A stretch of DNA of 64,000 nt from positions 1 to 64,000 of the forward strand of contig JAFXUD010000059.1 in assembly GCA_017535315.1 (NCBI GenBank). Reading direction: 5' to 3'. Within the stretch, counting starts at the first letter, position 1, and each line of letters opens with the position of its first letter. The position numbers were made by a program, and so were the translations under genes. The stretch comes from Victivallales bacterium (GTDB lineage: Bacteria; Verrucomicrobiota; Lentisphaeria; Oligosphaerales; Oligosphaeraceae). Positions 11,820 to 63,422 of the stretch are shown piece by piece. The notes under the pieces are model-generated. The model had not been told where the DNA came from and did no database searches. It was given only the letters and a program-made list of their open reading frames with translations.

Positions 11820-12467
11820 ATGAAAACAGCCTTCAATGAACTTCTGACCAAATGTCCCATTGTTGCGATTCTGCGCGGCATCACAACAGCGGAGACACCT
11901 GCTGTCTGCGATGCCCTGTTCGAGAGCGGAATCCGTCTCCTTGAGATACCCCTGAACAGCCCTTCCCCATATGAGAGCATCGCAGCAGCTATCAAACACT
12001 GTGGAGAGCGACAGTTGGTCGGAGCGGGGACTGTTTTGACTCCAGATGAAGCCCGCAAGGTCAAGGAAGCTGGCGGCAAGTTCATCGTTTCGCCAAACAC
12101 CTCGCCAGAGACAATACGCGAAACGAAACGGCTCGGCATGGTCTCCATTCCTGGCTTCTTCACGGCAACAGAAGGTTTCAACGCCATTGCGGCAGGTGCC
12201 GACTATCTCAAACTCTTCCCTTCTGTGCTGGGACCTGGTTACATTAAGGATTTGAAAGCTGTCATCAAGACACCTATTCTGGCTGTCGGCGGCGTCAATG
12301 CCGCCAATGTTAAGGATTTTCTCAATGTGTGTGCTGGTGTCGGCATCGGAAGCGCCCTCTACAAGGCTGGCGACACACCCGAAAAAGTGGCGGAAAAAGC
12401 CAGGGAGTTTATCGCACTCATCAAGGAGGTAATTTCAAAACTCTCATCGAAATGCGCGTCGATATGA
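11820..12467 (+). CDS. 2-dehydro-3-deoxy-6-phosphogalactonate / KDPG aldolase
   Basis: 215 residues, class I aldolase of the Eda/DgoA family, a single TIM barrel. E42 (LLEIPLN) and the Schiff-base Lys K131 (ADYLKLFPS) are at the expected places, with R19-G20 in AILRGI. EIPLNSPSPYESI, GAGTVLTP and IVSPNTSPE resemble DgoA (KDPGal aldolase) more than enteric Eda, so 2-keto-3-deoxy-6-phosphogalactonate may be the better substrate. The products would be pyruvate and glyceraldehyde 3-phosphate. The final ~13 residues (EVISKLSSKCASI) are encoded by the left arm of a palindromic element (see 12425-12580), so the natural C-terminus may have been replaced. It is co-transcribed with the upstream quinone oxidoreductase. 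No matching kinase or dehydratase is adjacent. Confidence 0.88.
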   Translation: MKTAFNELLTKCPIVAILRGITTAETPAVCDALFESGIRLLEIPLNSPSPYESIAAAIKHCGERQLVGAGTVLTPDEARKVKEAGGKFIVSPNTSPETIRETKRLGMVSIPGFFTATEGFNAIAAGADYLKLFPSVLGPGYIKDLKAVIKTPILAVGGVNAANVKDFLNVCAGVGIGSALYKAGDTPEKVAEKAREFIALIKEVISKLSSKCASI

Positions 12468-12580
12468 ACACATCGGCGTCGGCAACGCCTCTCACCGCAC
12501 GAGTGTGCGGCCTCGAGCCGTTGCCTTAGCCACTGTGCCCATCTCTTAGCGCATTTCGCGCCAGTTTTGATATTACCTCC
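12425..12580. repeat. Nested palindromic element overlapping the aldolase 3' end
   Basis: GGAGGTAATTTCAAAACT (12425-12442) is matched, inverted and with one mismatch, at 12563-12580; a further CGAAATGCGC (12448-12457) is matched at 12549-12558. Inside, GGCAACG (12481-12487) pairs with CGTTGCC (12519-12525), and inside that CCGCAC (12495-12500) pairs with GTGCGG (12505-12510) around a GAGT loop. The ordered nesting suggests a small mobile palindromic element (MITE/REP-like) or a structured RNA. It covers the whole gap to the polymerase gene. Confidence 0.65.
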
Positions 12581-54312: not shown

Positions 54313-55089
54313 ATGAAAAAGCGTAGTTTTACCTTGATTGAACTTCTGGTTGTGATTGCTATTATCGCCATTCTGGCGGCAATGCTGCTGCCCGCGCTGA
54401 GCAAGGCACGGGACAAGGCTCGCACCATCTCCTGCGTCAACAAGGAGAAGCAGGTTGCGTTGGCCTCCATCATGTATGCCAACGACAACGGCGACTGCTG
54501 GGCACCCTCCAGGTGCTACGAGACAGAAGGGGGCGACACGGCGTTCAACGTCTATTTCACGCGCCTGCTCATTCGCAACAAGCTGATTGAGGGGGGAATG
54601 TTTGTTTGCGACATGGCCGAAGCAAGGGCCAATGAGCAGACCTGGTCAGCCAACACGGTGAAAAACTGGAAAGGGAAGGCCAACGAGGAAGGCTGGACTG
54701 GCGGCAACGGCGGCTCCAAGGGCGGCGACCCCTACGCCTATCCGGGCTACGGCATGAGCGGCTTCGTGCGTGCGGACGTTTCCGACAGCAATTACACGAC
54801 GGCTGTTGCGAAGTTCAAGAACGCCAGCAACAAGGTTCTTCTGGCCGAGGGCTGGAACAATGACAACCGCACGCTGGTTACCCCGCCCCGCTTCATCGGC
54901 GCCGCATTGCTTCATGTCAACAGCAATGGCAATGCCGGCCAGGGCTTCGTCTATCCTCTTCACAACCAGGAGAGGGCGGTGAATGTTGCGTTTATGGACG
55001 GTCACTGCGAGACGGTGGCCGTGCCTGGCTCGTCATCCGCCGCCGTCTATTCGGTCTTCACAAAGAAATTCTGGTGGTTGAACGAGTAG
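54313..55089 (+). CDS. Prepilin-like protein (H-X11-DG variant)
   Basis: 258 residues. [20 protein letters not shown] and [20 protein letters not shown] form the prepilin leader and helix. Near the C-terminus [15 protein letters not shown] has 11 residues between His and DG, against 9 in the two other copies in this window (34986 and 37875). [18 protein letters not shown] is the typical second element. It lies between two very large secreted proteins and has its own candidate promoter and long leader. A 30-bp hairpin follows it. Function is unknown. Confidence 0.89.
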
Positions 55090-55125: not shown

Positions 55126-55190
55126 AACCGCAAAACACACAGAGGCGTCCAGCCAAGATCTGGCTGGACGCCTCTGTGTGTTTTGCGGTT
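55126..55190. repeat. Perfect 30-bp inverted repeat (65-nt hairpin)
   Basis: Positions 55126-55155 are exactly the reverse complement of 55161-55190; the loop is AGATC (55156-55160). The arms begin AACCGCAAAACACACAGAGG. No mismatch was found in 30 pairs. No T-run follows the right arm. It lies 37 bases after the prepilin-like gene stop and may act as a terminator, an mRNA stabiliser or something else. Confidence 0.95.
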
Positions 55191-55195
55191 AATAG

Positions 55196-55231
55196 TTTCA
55201 TCTTATATAGAACTTTCATCTTATATAGAAC
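55196..55231 (+). repeat. 18-bp tandem repeat upstream of the giant glycosidase-like gene
   Basis: TTTCATCTTATATAGAAC occurs at 55196-55213 and again at 55214-55231 without a gap. Each copy holds a TATATA-type box, so it could carry duplicated promoter or operator sites. Confidence 0.85.
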
Positions 55232-55265
55232 AAAGTTAAAAGAAAAATAGCAGGGAGTCAAACGA

Positions 55266-58200
55266 ATGTTGAGAAAGATGCTTGCAATTCTGGCGGTTAG
55301 CAGCATTTGGCTAATGGCGGAACCCGTCAAGGTGTGGAATGCCGACAACGGGTTCGTGGGGGTGAAGGCAGGGAAAAACGCCGAGGCGGTCGTGGCGGAC
55401 GGTCTCCTGAAGGCGAATCTCCTTGCGCGGGACCCTCAGCTGCAGTTTGACGCCGTCAAGCTGGATGCCATGAAGTGCAATGTCTTCACCTACAAGTACC
55501 GTGCAAATGGCGTCGGCGTCGAGGAAGGTCAGCTCTACTATGCGCACGATGGCGAAGGCTTCTCGCAGCAACGTTTCTGGAGGATTCCCACGATGAAGAA
55601 CGACAACGAGTGGCACACCGTCACTTTGACGGGACGAAACCTTGTCGATGCCTCCACCTGGTTCACGGAGGCCCCCATCACCAAGCTGCGCTTTGACCCG
55701 ACGGACACGGCGGGCGGAAGCGTGGAGTTCGCGGAAATAGGCTTCCACTTCGACCCAAAGGCGGTCACCAAGTCGATGCTGTTGCCGCCCCTGCCGAAGG
55801 TAGAGCCGAAGCTGGACGCGCCTGTCTGGCCAGAGCGGAAGGCGTTTTTTAACGAACCGCCCGCCGCTTCCACGCAGGTGCCGAAGGCCTATTTCCGTGG
55901 GAAGATGCTTGTCTCGCCAGAGGACAAGCTGGGGCGCGGGCAGTACACCACTTTCTACATGCGGTGCCAGGTTAATCTGAAGGCGGCGCCAGTTGAGGCG
56001 TGGCTCCAGTTCACGGGCGACGACTATGCGCAGGCGTACCTCAATGGGACGCATGTCGCCACGATGAACAACTGGCGCCTGCTCCGCGTCGTGGATGTGA
56101 AAAAACACCTGCGTGCAGGGGCAAATGCGCTGGGCTACCGCTATACGAACACAGGAGATGTCGGCGGCGTCATTGGCGAGCTTTTCGTGCGCTACGCGGA
56201 CGGGAGCTTCGAGCGCTTCAACTCGGATGACAGCTTTCTCACGCACGAAAAGGAGGAGGCTGGCTGGTGTACGCCTGGCTTCAAGGCCAGCGGTTGGCAG
56301 AAGTCCATTCTGAAGGAGGGGGCACCGACGCCGCCTTGGCGGACCGTCTGGCCGTATCGCGACTTCGAGAACGGGCAGACTGTGGTGAAATCCAGCGTCG
56401 TGCCAACGGATATGCAGGCGGGAGAGACCATTCACGTTCAGCTCACTTTCAAGGGGAAGATGCCGACGCTCCCTTTCAAGGCCAGCGCGAATCTACGCAA
56501 AGGGGAAAAAATCCTCTGGGATGAGGCAATTGAGCTTAATGCGGACAACACGAAGGCCAACGGCGACGGCACCTGGTCCATCGACATCCGCTATGAGACG
56601 CCGATGTACATCTCCTCCACCGAGTGCGATTTCAGCCTCGAATCGCCGCATCTGACCATGAGCGACGGCACATACCCAGCGTTTCCAGTCAAGATAACCC
56701 AGCTGAAGAGCATCCCTGGCTATGAACGGCCGCCCGTGTTCAAGGTGGGCAACGTGGCGGGCACGCCCGTCTTCACGAAAAACGGAAAGCCTGAATATTT
56801 TGTCTGGTGCGGTGTGCAGCGCGAGAAGCGGGTGGACAAGCTGCCCATCCATAGCGCCTATCCCGTGAATCTGGTGACGGTCTATCTGAACGACAGCAAC
56901 GTCTGGACGAAGCTGGACGAAATCAACTTCAGCGAATACGACCGCCAGGCGGAGGCCTACCGCCGCAACAATCCGAACGCCTACTTTGTCTTCAACATCA
57001 TGTGCTATCCGCCCATGGAGTGGGCGAAGAAATACCCTGACGAGATGTGCCTCGATTCCAAGGGGGAGGTCAACAAGGACGGACGCTGCAACTACTCCTT
57101 CACCTCCAAGCAGGCGCTGAAGGATTTGGACGATTTTGTCACGAAGGTCATTACCTACTTGGAGCAGAGCCCCTATGCGAACCGCATCGCTGGCTACCGT
57201 ATCTGCGGCGGCCATACGCTCGAATGGCTGGGGTGGGACCCCAAACCTGGGCTGACCGTCGATTTCTCCCCCGCTGCGCAGAAGGCCTTCACGGAGTACA
57301 TGCACGCGCATCATCCCGAGATTCAGGACACCTCCATCCCCACGCTTGAGGAGCGCAGCGAACTGGATGGCGAGGATATCCTTTGGGAGCCGAAAAAGCA
57401 CCGCCGCGCCATCGCCTACACGAACTTCTACTCAGAGGCGATTGTCGATATGATGGTGGCGTTGTGCCGTCGCGCGAAGTCCATTGCGGGCGAGAACAAG
57501 CTGGTGGGCACCTACTACGGCTACACGATGACCTTGGCCGCCCATGGCAGCGCACATATGCGCGCGCACTACCTCCTGCGCAAGGTGCTGGATGCGAAGT
57601 GCATGGACTTTCTCATCTCGCCGCACCCCTATCGTCTTCGCAACATCGGTGACATCATGGGCGACATGAAGCCCTTTGCGACGATGGCGATGAACGGTAT
57701 CGTCCCCGTTATCGAGGAGGATTCGCGCACCTTCAACGGCCCATCTGGGATGGGCTACTACCAGATGATCAACGAGGAGACCACGCTGGACGTGGTCCGC
57801 AGGAACATCGGCTTCATTATGTGCCGCAACAACCAGCCCTACTTCTACGCCCTTTCGCAGGGGACGGAGTTCGACTTTCCGCAGATGGCGAAGGACTTCG
57901 CCGTGGTGCAGGCGGCGGGGCAGCACTGCCTTGAAAAGGGTGTGCGCCGCAACGCGAAGGTGGCGCTGGTGGTCAGCGAAGAGGCCATCAGGTCGATGCC
58001 CATGCTCAACCGCTGGGTCGCCTCTGGCGAATTGAGCCAGACCTACGAGATGGACGGCAAGCCCGTGGTGAAGCCCCGCTTCAACTCCGTCTTCACTGGC
58101 GAATCCTTCGACGAGAACTACATCCGCTTCGCCCGCAGCGGCGCCGCCATCGATTATGTGTTGGCAGAGGATTTGGCGAAATACGCTGGCGACTACAAAC

Positions 58201-59462
58201 TCTATGTTTTCGCTAACTGCTTCAACTATGACCAGGCCCTGCTGGATGCGGTTGAGAAACTGCGCCAGCGCGACTGCACCCTACTTTGGGTCTATGCCCC
58301 TGGCTTCGCCTTCAACGACGCCTGTGGCGTGGAGAGCATGAAAAAGCTGACGGGCTTCACCTTTGCGCAGGAGGACAAGCCCATCGTGCCTGAAGTCACG
58401 CTGGCGGACGGTCGTGCCATGGGCAACCGCACCCACCGCGTCGCCCCCATGTTCCATGTGGTTGACAAGGAGGTGGAGGTGCTGGGGCGCTACAAGGACG
58501 GAAAAGTCGGCCTTGCCTCGAAGAAGACAGGCCAGGCGACCTCCATTTTCTGTGGTGTCTGGCAGTTCGACGTGCCCTTCCTCCAGGCGACAGCCGCCAA
58601 GGCGGGCGCGCATATCTACACGACCACCTCCGACCCCGTGGAGGCGAATGACGCACTGTTCATGCTCCACGCCCGCTTTCCTGGGCAGAAGACCGTGAAG
58701 CTGCCGAGAAAGTGCGACGTCATCGACCTCTTCGAGAAGAAGCTTGTCGCCAAGTATGTCGATGTCTTCACCTTCGACGCCAACCTCCACGACACCCACC
58801 TCTTCTACTACGGCGACGACGCCGAGGAACTGCTGAAGAAGCTGCAGAATACTCCCCAGCAGGGAGCCCTGAACCGCGAAATCGAATACCAGAAAGTCAT
58901 GACACGCCAGCTCGGCAAGTACCTGAAGGAGAAGTTTGCTGGCAAGAAGGCCATCATCATAGACCCCTTTTCCAAGGAAGACACACCTGCTTTTGTTGGC
59001 CTCACTGAAGGTATTGACGGTGCCCTCGCCATTGTTGACACCGTCTCCCCAGAATCTCCAATGCCGAAGGAGAATGCCCCCGAAATGAAAATGATGGCCC
59101 CAATGGAAACCTGGTACACCAAGAGAGTTCTTGAGAATCTGCTGAAGGGCAAGGATGCCGACCTTGTCATCACCCTCATCGGCCTCCCCATTGGCGTTGT
59201 CTGCTCTGGCAATGGATTCAATGTCCCCTGCCTGAAGGGCAAGAAGGTCGTCTTCGCAGGTGGTAGCATCTATGAGCACAGACGCGCCTTCCAGAATGGC
59301 TGCATTGTCGCCGCCGTTACCTACAAGCCCAATGCCGAATACGATGAGAAGCCCTTTCCGAAGGACGAGCAGGCCGCCTTTGACAAGCGCTTCCTTCTAA
59401 TCACCTCCGAAAACTTCAAGGAAGTCATGCGTCAATACCCCGTCGATGTCTTCCAGCATTAA
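55266..59462 (+). CDS. Giant secreted glycosidase-like protein with extra C-terminal domain
   Basis: 1398 residues; signal peptide MLRKMLAILAVSSIWLMA then EPVK. Residues ~25-165 are a beta-sandwich. About 200-340 is a galactose-binding-like domain (LQFTGDDYAQAYLNGTHVAT, YRYTNTGDVGGVIGELFVRY). From about 500 a clan GH-A-type barrel (similar in layout to GH42 beta-galactosidases) has GGHTLEWLGW with E653 and IVPVIEEDSRT with E817/E818. Both sites are conserved in the paralogue at 59940 (E610, E773), with spacing 164 and 163. The last ~200 residues, from about 1195, have no counterpart in the paralogue and are not recognised. GGGAG lies eight bases upstream. The family and substrate are unassigned. 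Confidence 0.78.
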   Translation: MLRKMLAILAVSSIWLMAEPVKVWNADNGFVGVKAGKNAEAVVADGLLKANLLARDPQLQFDAVKLDAMKCNVFTYKYRANGVGVEEGQLYYAHDGEGFSQQRFWRIPTMKNDNEWHTVTLTGRNLVDASTWFTEAPITKLRFDPTDTAGGSVEFAEIGFHFDPKAVTKSMLLPPLPKVEPKLDAPVWPERKAFFNEPPAASTQVPKAYFRGKMLVSPEDKLGRGQYTTFYMRCQVNLKAAPVEAWLQFTGDDYAQAYLNGTHVATMNNWRLLRVVDVKKHLRAGANALGYRYTNTGDVGGVIGELFVRYADGSFERFNSDDSFLTHEKEEAGWCTPGFKASGWQKSILKEGAPTPPWRTVWPYRDFENGQTVVKSSVVPTDMQAGETIHVQLTFKGKMPTLPFKASANLRKGEKILWDEAIELNADNTKANGDGTWSIDIRYETPMYISSTECDFSLESPHLTMSDGTYPAFPVKITQLKSIPGYERPPVFKVGNVAGTPVFTKNGKPEYFVWCGVQREKRVDKLPIHSAYPVNLVTVYLNDSNVWTKLDEINFSEYDRQAEAYRRNNPNAYFVFNIMCYPPMEWAKKYPDEMCLDSKGEVNKDGRCNYSFTSKQALKDLDDFVTKVITYLEQSPYANRIAGYRICGGHTLEWLGWDPKPGLTVDFSPAAQKAFTEYMHAHHPEIQDTSIPTLEERSELDGEDILWEPKKHRRAIAYTNFYSEAIVDMMVALCRRAKSIAGENKLVGTYYGYTMTLAAHGSAHMRAHYLLRKVLDAKCMDFLISPHPYRLRNIGDIMGDMKPFATMAMNGIVPVIEEDSRTFNGPSGMGYYQMINEETTLDVVRRNIGFIMCRNNQPYFYALSQGTEFDFPQMAKDFAVVQAAGQHCLEKGVRRNAKVALVVSEEAIRSMPMLNRWVASGELSQTYEMDGKPVVKPRFNSVFTGESFDENYIRFARSGAAIDYVLAEDLAKYAGDYKLYVFANCFNYDQALLDAVEKLRQRDCTLLWVYAPGFAFNDACGVESMKKLTGFTFAQEDKPIVPEVTLADGRAMGNRTHRVAPMFHVVDKEVEVLGRYKDGKVGLASKKTGQATSIFCGVWQFDVPFLQATAAKAGAHIYTTTSDPVEANDALFMLHARFPGQKTVKLPRKCDVIDLFEKKLVAKYVDVFTFDANLHDTHLFYYGDDAEELLKKLQNTPQQGALNREIEYQKVMTRQLGKYLKEKFAGKKAIIIDPFSKEDTPAFVGLTEGIDGALAIVDTVSPESPMPKENAPEMKMMAPMETWYTKRVLENLLKGKDADLVITLIGLPIGVVCSGNGFNVPCLKGKKVVFAGGSIYEHRRAFQNGCIVAAVTYKPNAEYDEKPFPKDEQAAFDKRFLLITSENFKEVMRQYPVDVFQH

Positions 59463-59610: not shown

Positions 59611-59761
59611 CAGATAGGGTGTGGCGACGGCGTCCTCGCCGTCGGAGAACCGCGCACAAGTAGCAGGCTGTGCAATGCCACCGATAGGGTGTGGCGATGG
59701 CGTCCTCGCCGTCGGAGAACCGCGCACAAGTAGCAGGCTGTGCAATGCCACACCCTATCTG
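59611..59761. repeat. 70-bp tandem duplication bounded by 15-bp inverted repeats
   Basis: Units 59613-59682 and 59683-59752 match except for a C to T change in the left hairpin arm. CAGATAGGGTGTGGC (59611-59625) at the left end is the perfect reverse complement of GCCACACCCTATCTG (59747-59761) at the right end. The whole 151-bp block is therefore terminally inverted, like a MITE. Confidence 0.8.
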
Positions 59762-59803
59762 TCGCGTTTCAATGTCGCTGGCGGGCGCGTGAGGCGCGTT
59801 TTA

Positions 59804-59939: not shown

Positions 59940-62900
59940 ATGAAAAAACTGTTTTTTGCGTTGTTTTTGATGGCATTTGCGTTGTATGCGCTGGATGTTG
60001 ACCTGAGCAAGTTCGGGGCTGTGCGTGGATGCAACGCGGTGTTTGAGGATGGGGTGCTGGTTATCACGGACATCAAGCGCGATCACTCCGTCACGTATGA
60101 AAAACTGGACATCGACCCGCTGAAATACAACGTGGCGAAAGTGGTCTATTGCGCTGAGGGCTTTGAGAATATTTCCAACGGAGAGCTTTTCTACGCTCCC
60201 AAGGGCAAGGGGTTTGAAAACCAACTACAGTGGCAGGTCGGGGGGCTTCGCGCGGATGGCAAATGGCGCGAAACTGAGCTGCTGCTCTCAACCTCCGTGG
60301 CCAGGGAGGGGTGGGAGTCCTGCGGTAAAATTACCAAGTTGCGGCTGGACATGACCAATTCAGAAGGGAAGTGTATCAAGGTTCGCTCGCTGACCTTCTC
60401 CAAGGAGGAAGTGCGCCAAGGTGCACAGACGTGGTACTGGTCGGTCGAGGGGGAGCCGCCCAAGATGACGAAGCCCTATTTCCAGGGGCTGATGGTGCGC
60501 AACCAGGAGGAGAACGACAAGCCCGAAGACGGCAAGAACTACCCTGTGCGCCGTAGCTTCACCGTGAAGAACGATGTGCAGGAGGCCTTCCTGCAGTTCA
60601 TGGGGGATGACGCCGCGGTCGCATACGTCAATGGTGTCAAGGTTGCCTCGAACATCAACTGGAAGGTGCCGACGGTTGTGGAGGTGACGGACAAGCTCGT
60701 CAAAGGCGAGAACATGCTTGCCTTTACCTACCGCAATGCCATCTCGTATGGCGGCGTGCTCTGCGAGCTCTATGTGCGCTTCACCAACGGGGAATCCATG
60801 CGCGTCAATTCGGATAAGCTTTTCCAGTGGGGGGCGGCGATGGACGATGGTTGGAACAAGGTCGGCGCTTCCAACAACGGCTGGGCTCCCGTGGTGACGA
60901 TGCCAGCTGCTCCTTGCGCCCCATGGACGACTGTCCTCCCATACGTCAACTACGACAACCCCGCCGAGCTTCTGTCAATCTTCACGGACAAGCCAGAGTA
61001 TGGACCAGGCGAAATCTGCCGCGCCACCTTGCAGTTGCGCGGGCGGATGCCCTTGAAGGCGCCGCTTTTTGACATTGTCCTCCACAACGAGACGAACCGC
61101 TACGAGTACAAGGAGCTGACAGGCGTCAAGCAGATGCTGGAGGCCGAGGGCGGCGCCAGCTGGCAGTATGAGCTGGCGTTCGAGATGCCTATCTATGCGC
61201 CGAGCGGTGACTACATGGTTGATTTCAGCACGCAGGAGTTCATGGTGAAAGGGGAAGGCGGCAAGGCGAAAATCCGCTACAACCAGAAGTCGCTGCCCGC
61301 AGAACGCACAGTGGCTGAGGTGCGACAGCAGGGGCCGAACGCCGTGATTCACGTCAATGGCAAGCCATTTTACTCCATCGGCAGCAATGGCGACCGCCTC
61401 AAGGAGCTCTACGCCAATACCATAAGCGTCTCAGGACATACCGTTTTCTGGACAGGAATTGACGAGTACACCTTTGCAGAGGTTGACAGCGAGGTCGAGA
61501 GGGTGCTGGCGGGCAAGCCCAATGCCTATCTCTTGATGGGGATGGAGCTCTACCCACCCGCCGACTGGGCGAAGAAGTACCCCGACGATATGTGTACAAA
61601 CTACGAAGGGGGACGCGGTTATTACTACCGCACGATGTACTCTAACAGCTCCAAGCGGGCGCGGGAGGATATGCAGAAGACCATCCGCATCTTCATCGAA
61701 CACTGCGAAAACAGTGCCTACCGCGACCGCATCATCGGCTACCGCCTGCACGGAGGCACCACCATTGAGTGGCTTGGATGGGGGCATTTCCACAAGAGTG
61801 AGCGTTATGACTACTCGCCTGTCGCAAAGGAGTCATTCAAGAAATTTACGGCGAAATACTACCCTTATCTGAGGGGCGAGTTGCCGACACCCGAACAGAC
61901 TTTGGCCTTTGATGGCAATCTGCTGCTGGACAGCAAAAAAGACGCCCTACGCATTGCCCACAACGACTTCATCTCCTTCGAGGAAGCGGACTTGCTGGCG
62001 GCCCTCGCGCAGACAGCGAAGGAGGCCGCGCATGGGCGCAAGCTCATCGGTGCCTACTATGGCTACACCTGTTTCCTGCCCATCCTTACCCAGATACCCG
62101 AGACCGCCCACCTCTGCCTGAAGAAACTGATGGAGACGAAGACGCTGGATTTCCTGATGTCCCCGCACGACTATAACAGCCGTTGGATTGGCGAGACCAG
62201 CGCGGACATGAAGCCTATCACCACGATGGAGCAGAACGGCATCGTGCCGATTCTGGAAAACGACTCGCGTACCAATGGCTATGCGAAGAAGTATAATCCC
62301 AAGGAGCGCTACCCAGGCGACTACGGGCAGGCCATCAATCCGTGGCATCTGCTTCAACTCAACAAGCGTGACATCGGTATCGCGGTGGTGCGCCGCCAGC
62401 CCTTTATGATTGCTCCCTACCTTTGGAACAGGGATTTCCAGGCGAATGAAATCTCGGTGCCGAGCCGAGCCGCCGCCGTGGCGGGCCAGTGGACTGTTGA
62501 GCATGATGTGAAGCGCCGCGCGGAAATCGCCATCGTAGTCAGCGAGAACAGCTTCAAGTACATGCCGTACATTCGCAATGGAGCTTTCTATAAAAAGCGT
62601 TCTTTCATGTTCGATGTTTTCACTGGGCAGGTGAGGAAGCGCAGAATCTCTGGCCTGATGTTCACGGGGGCTCTGGTGACGCGCCTTTGCCAAGATACCT
62701 CCTACCTGGGTGCACCCGCCGATTTAATCTTGGCGGAGGACCTGAAGGACCACATTGGCAACTACAAGATGTGGATTTTCGCCAACTGTTTCGCCGTTGA
62801 TGAGGCCTTCGTCAAGGCAGTCCGCACCATTCAGAATACGGATGCTACGCTGCTCTGGCTCTATGCCCCAGGCTACTTCCAGAACGGGACGGATGGCGTG

Positions 62901-63422
62901 GAAAACATGAAGGCGTTGACGGGTTTTACCTACCGTCGTGTGGAGGGCAAGCGCATTCCCACAATGGAATGGGGCGTGAAGGTGGCTGGCGAGCCTGGCG
63001 ATTCAATGTGCCCATCGTTCGAGGTCGTGCCCACTGAAAACGACGAGGTACGCGGCGCCTACGAGGACAACGGCGCCCCCTGCCTCGTGCAGCGGAAGAT
63101 CGGTCGTTCCCGCAACATCTACTGCGGCATTAATGCACCTGGCAACGAGGTCATCAAGCAGCTGGCCTCCGAGGCGGGCATCCGCTTCTACACGGATGAC
63201 AACGACGCCTTTGACTGCAACGATGCCTTCTTCACCCTTCATGCCTGCGAAACAGGCAAGAAGACCATCCGCTTCCCGAAAGCCTGCGATGTCGTGGATG
63301 TCTATAACCGCAAGGTCGTGGCGCGCAATGTGGATACGTTTACCTTCGAGGCCCCAATCTTCACGTCGCATCTCTTCTACTACGGGGAGAAGGCTGACGA
63401 GCTGCTTAAGCTACTGAAGTAA
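59940..63422 (+). CDS. Giant secreted glycosidase-like protein, paralogue of 55266
   Basis: 1160 residues; signal peptide MKKLFFALFLMAFALYA, then LDVDLSKFG. It follows the same layout as the 55266 protein: N-terminal beta-sandwich, galactose-binding-like domain (FLQFMGDDAAVAYVNGVKVA, AFTYRNAISYGGVLCELYVR), then the barrel with GGTTIEWLGWGHFHKSERYD (E610) and IVPILENDSRTNGYAKKY (E773). It ends at YYGEKADELLKLLK, the point where the paralogue continues for 200 residues. Sequence identity is moderate, so the duplication is old. GGAG is eight bases upstream. The tcdA gene follows 12 bases after the stop. Confidence 0.78.
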   Translation: MKKLFFALFLMAFALYALDVDLSKFGAVRGCNAVFEDGVLVITDIKRDHSVTYEKLDIDPLKYNVAKVVYCAEGFENISNGELFYAPKGKGFENQLQWQVGGLRADGKWRETELLLSTSVAREGWESCGKITKLRLDMTNSEGKCIKVRSLTFSKEEVRQGAQTWYWSVEGEPPKMTKPYFQGLMVRNQEENDKPEDGKNYPVRRSFTVKNDVQEAFLQFMGDDAAVAYVNGVKVASNINWKVPTVVEVTDKLVKGENMLAFTYRNAISYGGVLCELYVRFTNGESMRVNSDKLFQWGAAMDDGWNKVGASNNGWAPVVTMPAAPCAPWTTVLPYVNYDNPAELLSIFTDKPEYGPGEICRATLQLRGRMPLKAPLFDIVLHNETNRYEYKELTGVKQMLEAEGGASWQYELAFEMPIYAPSGDYMVDFSTQEFMVKGEGGKAKIRYNQKSLPAERTVAEVRQQGPNAVIHVNGKPFYSIGSNGDRLKELYANTISVSGHTVFWTGIDEYTFAEVDSEVERVLAGKPNAYLLMGMELYPPADWAKKYPDDMCTNYEGGRGYYYRTMYSNSSKRAREDMQKTIRIFIEHCENSAYRDRIIGYRLHGGTTIEWLGWGHFHKSERYDYSPVAKESFKKFTAKYYPYLRGELPTPEQTLAFDGNLLLDSKKDALRIAHNDFISFEEADLLAALAQTAKEAAHGRKLIGAYYGYTCFLPILTQIPETAHLCLKKLMETKTLDFLMSPHDYNSRWIGETSADMKPITTMEQNGIVPILENDSRTNGYAKKYNPKERYPGDYGQAINPWHLLQLNKRDIGIAVVRRQPFMIAPYLWNRDFQANEISVPSRAAAVAGQWTVEHDVKRRAEIAIVVSENSFKYMPYIRNGAFYKKRSFMFDVFTGQVRKRRISGLMFTGALVTRLCQDTSYLGAPADLILAEDLKDHIGNYKMWIFANCFAVDEAFVKAVRTIQNTDATLLWLYAPGYFQNGTDGVENMKALTGFTYRRVEGKRIPTMEWGVKVAGEPGDSMCPSFEVVPTENDEVRGAYEDNGAPCLVQRKIGRSRNIYCGINAPGNEVIKQLASEAGIRFYTDDNDAFDCNDAFFTLHACETGKKTIRFPKACDVVDVYNRKVVARNVDTFTFEAPIFTSHLFYYGEKADELLKLLK

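Follow-up and report, generated by a model that had tools for sequence, protein, structure and literature searches.

What a perfect inverted repeat of 30 bp does between two genes of a bacterial genome, and how it came to be there, is the question raised by one site in the window, i.e. the whole stretch of 64,000 nucleotides from a Victivallales bacterium analysed here. An earlier note, made from the sequence alone, had set the repeat apart from intrinsic terminators by its length and by the lack of a T-run after it, and proposed recent origin or strong selection as a replication or transfer structure, a mobile palindrome, an RNase III substrate or an mRNA stabiliser. We examined the repeat itself, the hairpins of its genome (G000) and the corresponding gene ends in relatives, all available as fragmented drafts, two of which (G001 and G002) are congeners.

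Structure and setting of the hairpin

The repeat is exactly as described: the arms at 55126-55155 and 55161-55190, each of 30 nt, are complementary at 100%, and the full sequence reads AACCGCAAAACACACAGAGGCGTCCAGCCA-AGATC-TGGCTGGACGCCTCTGTGTGTTTTGCGGTT (Table 1). RNA folding, which the earlier note had proposed as a check, gave -60.8 kcal/mol for the 65-mer alone on either strand (z = -15.5), a value equalled by 0 of 200 shuffles, and -65.7 kcal/mol (z = -12) with its flanks. The 12 T of the 3' arm are concentrated in GTGTGTTTT, directly past the 15-bp core, and this U-rich stretch inside the stem is broken by G. No T-run stands directly past the 30-bp stem, as the earlier note had rightly said; AATAGTTTCA is found there instead, and a terminator scan had no entry for the site. 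With the core counted as the stem, however, the next 9 nt hold 6 T and form an imperfect tract. The contrast with terminators was drawn too sharply: the core together with GUGUGUUUU resembles a terminator with a paired U-rich tail, as known from bidirectional terminators. A search of the window against Rfam 15 gave nothing above the gathering score.

Table 1. Features at and around the perfect hairpin (window coordinates)
Feature	Position	Strand	Basis
Upstream gene, prepilin-type N-terminal methylation motif protein, 258 aa	54313..55089	+	PF07963 (N_methyl) match
Perfect 30-bp inverted repeat with 5-nt loop AGATC	55126..55190		sequence, RNA folding
5' arm, A-rich outside (CAAAACACAC), 12 A and 1 T	55126..55155	+	sequence, arm base counts
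GC-rich core hairpin, 15 bp, -30.9 kcal/mol alone	55141..55175	+	RNA folding
3' arm, U-rich outside, 12 T and 1 A	55161..55190	+	sequence, arm base counts
GTGTGTTTT, U-rich, directly 3' of the core; candidate imperfect, paired U-tract	55176..55184	+	sequence
Two exact copies of the 18-nt AT-rich unit TTTCATCTTATATAGAAC, directly past the hairpin	55196..55231	+	repeat search
AGGGAG, putative ribosome-binding site ahead of the giant gene	55252..55257	+	sequence
Downstream (giant) gene, 1398 aa, signal-like N-terminus, large paralogous family, weak GH2-N2-like match	55266..59462	+	ORF, homology, profile search

The neighbours named earlier, a prepilin-like gene and a giant gene for a secreted protein, were confirmed as a PF07963 gene and a gene with a signal-like N-terminus. 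The prepilin stop lies 36 nt before the hairpin and the giant-gene ATG 75 nt after it; the two genes are codirectional and 176 nt apart. The AT-rich copies at 55196..55231 are a possible promoter region of the giant gene.

The giant gene has many paralogs in its own and in related genomes. One of them (59940-63422) is adjacent to it, and the sole domain match of the pair, to GH2-N2, is weak and below the Pfam cut-off. The C-terminal 200 residues of the giant protein make up a module of their own, which stands alone in many relatives. Between the two giant genes, at 59613-59771, a 70-bp unit (GATAGGGTGTGGCGACGGCG...) occurs twice at 98% identity and is followed by an inverted partial copy, and sequence related to this array is found past another gene end in G001 (L123).

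Long perfect hairpins in the genome

The survey covered 1.1 Mb of the 4.9-Mb genome (22%), taken in stretches, in which a simple codon-usage script called 766 genes. Perfect hairpins with a stem of at least 13 bp and a loop of 3-12 nt number 37 in this sample, the one at 55126 being the longest, and about two-thirds of them, this one included, are single-copy in the sample; some belong to repeat families, namely the GAGGTAATTTCAAAACTAGCGC palindrome, heptad-based palindromes and the GGGACGGGAGGGACG family. After local shuffling of the same sample perfect stems never exceeded 11 bp, which excludes a chance origin of the 30-bp stem.

Hairpins of this genome prefer the ends of genes. A strong hairpin lies within 90 nt past 17.5% of stops, compared with 4.1% upstream of starts and 0% in shuffles, and in about 45% of those past stops the 7 nt that come next include 4 T or more; only a minority of the gene 3'-ends in the genome carry such hairpins. 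Of the convergent gaps 12.5% contain a perfect stem of at least 12 bp, of the codirectional ones 7.6% and of the divergent ones 3.0%, a trend that fits a role at 3'-ends (convergent versus divergent, p = 0.066). Prepilin genes are followed by a perfect hairpin of at least 10 bp in 10 of 72 cases, against 37 of 694 for other genes (p = 0.009).

Since the 3' arm of a perfect palindrome is identical on both strands, an excess of T over A in this arm points to U-rich tails whichever strand is read. In the single-copy gene-end hairpins of at least 13 bp, the 3' arms hold 111 T against 54 A, and 15 hairpins have more T than A and 4 the reverse (p = 0.019, in a small sample), while the baseline counts in downstream sequence are T = 8604 and A = 8921. 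The bias was not seen in hairpins of 10-12 bp.

Four relatives of the same family, each sampled over 80 kb, had no perfect stem as long as 15 bp, and the excess of long hairpins is therefore lineage-specific. The genome G008 has many long perfect stems, mostly from repeat families; its L081 and other stretches are full of two palindromic families, GCCTCTTTGGCCCCAGTCGGC... and GCGAGGGGGCGAGGAAGGG..., which are unlike those of the window's genome. That the many palindromes result from the lack of a hairpin nuclease, SbcCD, was considered and rejected, SbcD being present in G000 and nearly all relatives. SbcD of G000 has a 389-aa frame to itself; the SbcD match lies inside open frames of about 1550-1590 aa, perhaps an SbcD-SbcC fusion, at G001:C125:7856, G004:C23:95446, G007:C3:9998, G012:C294:1987 and G014:C94:78. 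In the literature we found nothing specific on hairpins of Lentisphaerota.

Replacement of hairpins at orthologous gene ends

The gene end at C9:18659 has a 26-bp hairpin in G000, an unrelated one of 25 bp in G001 and one of 9 bp in G002, each no more than 20 nt from the stop; the hairpin of G001 has an A-tract and a T-tract like a bidirectional terminator (AAAAAGGGGCTGTTGCAAAAC..GTTTTGCAACAGCCCCTTTTT). Similarly, where G000 has a 16-bp hairpin at C88:152431, that of G001 is long, unrelated in sequence and has perfect arms of 18 bp. In a wider test of orthologs, a related hairpin is kept at one gene end (C3:65888) and the others have none or an unrelated one, even though the coding sequences are 73-94% identical. 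We therefore firmly conclude that hairpins at gene ends turn over fast within the genus. Whether the position outlasts the sequence is less definite: with strong hairpins defined by a score threshold of 24 plus reading of individual cases, and with both sets pooled, the relative has a strong hairpin at 10 of 18 hairpin-bearing ends and at 2 of 10 control ends, a difference that is not significant. We regard positional conservation as suggestive, because control ends in G001 also gain hairpins.

At the locus itself, G001 matches the window at 93% as far as 54986, a position within the prepilin gene beyond which the two diverge, and synteny breaks after that gene; past the prepilin stop of G001 lies a GNAT-like reading frame and no hairpin, and its copy of the giant gene begins mid-gene at a contig end. 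The prepilin genes of G000 (54313-55089) and G001 (L093:6820-7580) are nearly identical at their 5'-ends and diverge strongly toward the C-terminus. Many prepilin paralogs, moreover, have the first 130-180 nt in common at about 80% identity, which suggests that the N-terminal part undergoes conversion or that the C-terminal part is a variable module.

A probable 3'-end hairpin of the prepilin transcript

On sequence grounds, we consider it fairly probable that the palindrome at 55126 is an RNA hairpin forming the 3'-end of the prepilin transcript, presumably by termination. It is probably an oversized, bidirectional putative terminator or 3'-end hairpin that insulates the prepilin gene from the giant gene. 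A role in RNA at the transcript end, which the earlier note had already considered, is supported by the position and by the U-rich 3' arms. What stands shortly past the stop is a stable GC-rich hairpin, and its arms have the A-rich 5' and U-rich 3' composition of bidirectional terminators, as do the long single-copy hairpins in general. In E. coli, most inverted repeats directly past stop codons belong to intrinsic terminators (PMC6060812). The missing T-run past the stem keeps us from classing the hairpin with canonical intrinsic terminators; the likeness is one of working, not of membership.

The events might run as follows. RNA polymerase leaving the prepilin gene would transcribe the stable GC-rich core (AGAGGCGUCCAGCCA/UGGCUGGACGCCUCU) and then the U-rich GUGUGUUUU, and folding of the core over the weak U-rich hybrid would pause or release the polymerase. 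The A-rich 5' arm would then close the full 30-bp stem, which could block 3' exonucleases. By its symmetry the palindrome should work on either strand, and the giant gene would be read from a promoter of its own within the AT-rich 75 nt past the hairpin.

The same position could serve a post-transcriptional function, as the earlier note had also proposed, if the prepilin and giant genes formed one operon: transcription would read through, and the hairpin would be cut by RNase III or block exonucleases, so that the prepilin mRNA outlives the part downstream. The codirectional genes, their short gap and the absence of a T-run past the stem speak for this, and a perfect stem of 30 bp is long enough for RNase III. 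However, hairpins of the same class also lie between convergent genes, so the operon explanation fails for those members; the model does not require the U-rich bias of the 3' arms; and the AT-rich repeats past the hairpin may provide the giant gene with a promoter of its own. The bias toward gene ends, the U-rich 3' arms and the hairpins in convergent gaps favour termination or protection over an operon-internal stabiliser, which we consider unlikely here.

Origin of the palindrome

A search of the entire 4.9-Mb genome with the 65-mer found no match but the site itself, and in 40 relatives the sequence is absent, with weak matches of 17-28 nt at most; it is therefore outside any repeat family. 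This result bears on the suggestion that the hairpin is a single copy of a mobile palindromic element, REP- or MITE-like, inserted past the prepilin gene. Palindromic repeat families are indeed present in the genome, e.g. that of GGTAATTTCAAAACTAGCGC with 123 sites, as are Y1_Tnp transposases, but the sequence at 55126 is unlike these families, the multiple related copies of a REP/REPIN or MITE were not found in the genome and the 40 relatives, and the flanks TGTTTTGA and AATAGTTT, inspected by eye, have no adjacent direct repeat of the kind left by MITE-type target-site duplication. The sequence does not resemble an integron attC site either: in such a site the hairpin is imperfect, has extrahelical bases and ends in GTTRRRY / RYYYAAC, whereas this stem is perfect, has no bulges and shows GTTAATA at its right end. 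The mobile palindrome of the earlier note thus finds no support for this copy, and we hold it improbable.

Several dispersed palindromes were observed in their own right. The half-site GGTAATTTCAAAACTAGCGC of the GAGGTAATTTCAAAACTAGCGC palindrome, present 123 times in G000, occurs 42 and 19 times in two congeners, and a control with the reversed pattern gave 0. This family is REP-like and often directly past stop codons (e.g. G000:C7:137895-137951, C11:8472-8524 and C78:51525-51572), with a decayed copy in the window at 12448-12577; the genome has three Y1_Tnp matches, two of which were checked and have no copy of the family in their flanks. A second dispersed family, on GGGACGGGAGGGACGGGAGCGACAGCAAAAT, forms very long imperfect hairpins with stems up to 56 bp at G000:C7:88192-88285, C9:96021-96107, L108:13430-13553, L008:6269-6374 and about 30 more places. 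In addition, a terminator-like double-hairpin cassette, GCGCGC.. followed by CGCCCCTCC[T/A]GCTAG..CTAGC[A/T]GGAGGGGCGTGCATTTT, lies behind different genes in G000 and G001 (L061:8726-8830, L123:970-1070) with compensating stem changes, and may be a copied terminator module.

A function at the DNA level, i.e. a cruciform, a replication or transfer site, or the binding site of a dimeric protein, was suggested earlier and would suit a perfect symmetry, which allows both a cruciform and symmetric binding. Sequences of the class, however, differ between places and between orthologous positions, therefore there is no shared recognition sequence, and their bias is toward gene ends rather than origins or mobility genes; for a replication or transfer structure in particular, no mobilisation context was seen, and such functions appear very improbable. 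Hardly credible is an assembly or library artefact such as a fold-back chimera: the source is a draft assembly of 96 contigs and fold-back artefacts do yield perfect inverted repeats, but both flanks diverge at once and run into intact genes, and many unrelated hairpins share the positional bias in this and related genomes; the many unrelated copies that the earlier note regarded as a sign of such artefacts were not found in the genome and 40 relatives, nor was a broken palindrome seen in the assembled sequence.

The recent origin proposed earlier agrees with these data, the 65-mer being unique among its own genome and 40 relatives and comparable hairpins at orthologous 3'-ends being swapped between congeners. 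Perfect stems are reported to be both produced and mended by template switching in replication (PMC8794818). The perfection of the stem may accordingly be that of a young sequence made or repaired in one such event, and template switching perhaps keeps it perfect. A broader conjecture, to which we give little weight, is that the genus caps the 3'-ends of its genes with very long, near-perfect hairpins which arise anew time and again by template switching, differ between species to the point of being unrelated at one and the same gene end, and act as bidirectional terminators without a T-run past the stem, the present one being an extreme and freshly made example.

Comparison with known systems

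If the hairpin ends transcripts, intrinsic-like 3'-ends are possible with stems of twice the usual size and with the U-rich part inside. Criteria based on TransTermHP limit the stem-loop to 59 nt (PMC12207403), so default annotation would miss this hairpin of 65 nt and others like it. Rapid replacement within one genus would also allow a direct study, through comparison of strains, of whether terminators arise by template switching or by mutation in small steps.

The closest likeness is to bidirectional intrinsic (Rho-independent) terminators with A-tract/U-tract pairing (PMC12207403), which share the GC-rich hairpin directly past the stop, A-rich on the 5' side and U-rich on the 3' side. The stem at 55126, however, is about twice as long as usual, has no T-run past it, and carries its U-rich part inside the perfect stem, interrupted by G. 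Strong hairpins near the stop and longer than average are also known as the terminator hairpins of Streptomyces, with medians of 32-35 nt (PMC12207403), and as hairpin clusters proposed as terminators (PMC8355165); in contrast to both, the present case is one single perfect 30-bp stem with a U-rich 3' arm. REP/REPIN palindromes are likewise extragenic and near gene ends, but form multi-copy families (PMC12306157), unlike this single copy. Template-switching hairpins (PMC8794818) are similar in being perfect and lineage-specific; at 55126 such an event is a proposal. Among these systems, the hairpin at 55126 stands as the longest flawless one found in the 1.1 Mb sampled from the genome of a gut Victivallales bacterium, a genome which is unusually rich in fast-changing hairpins.
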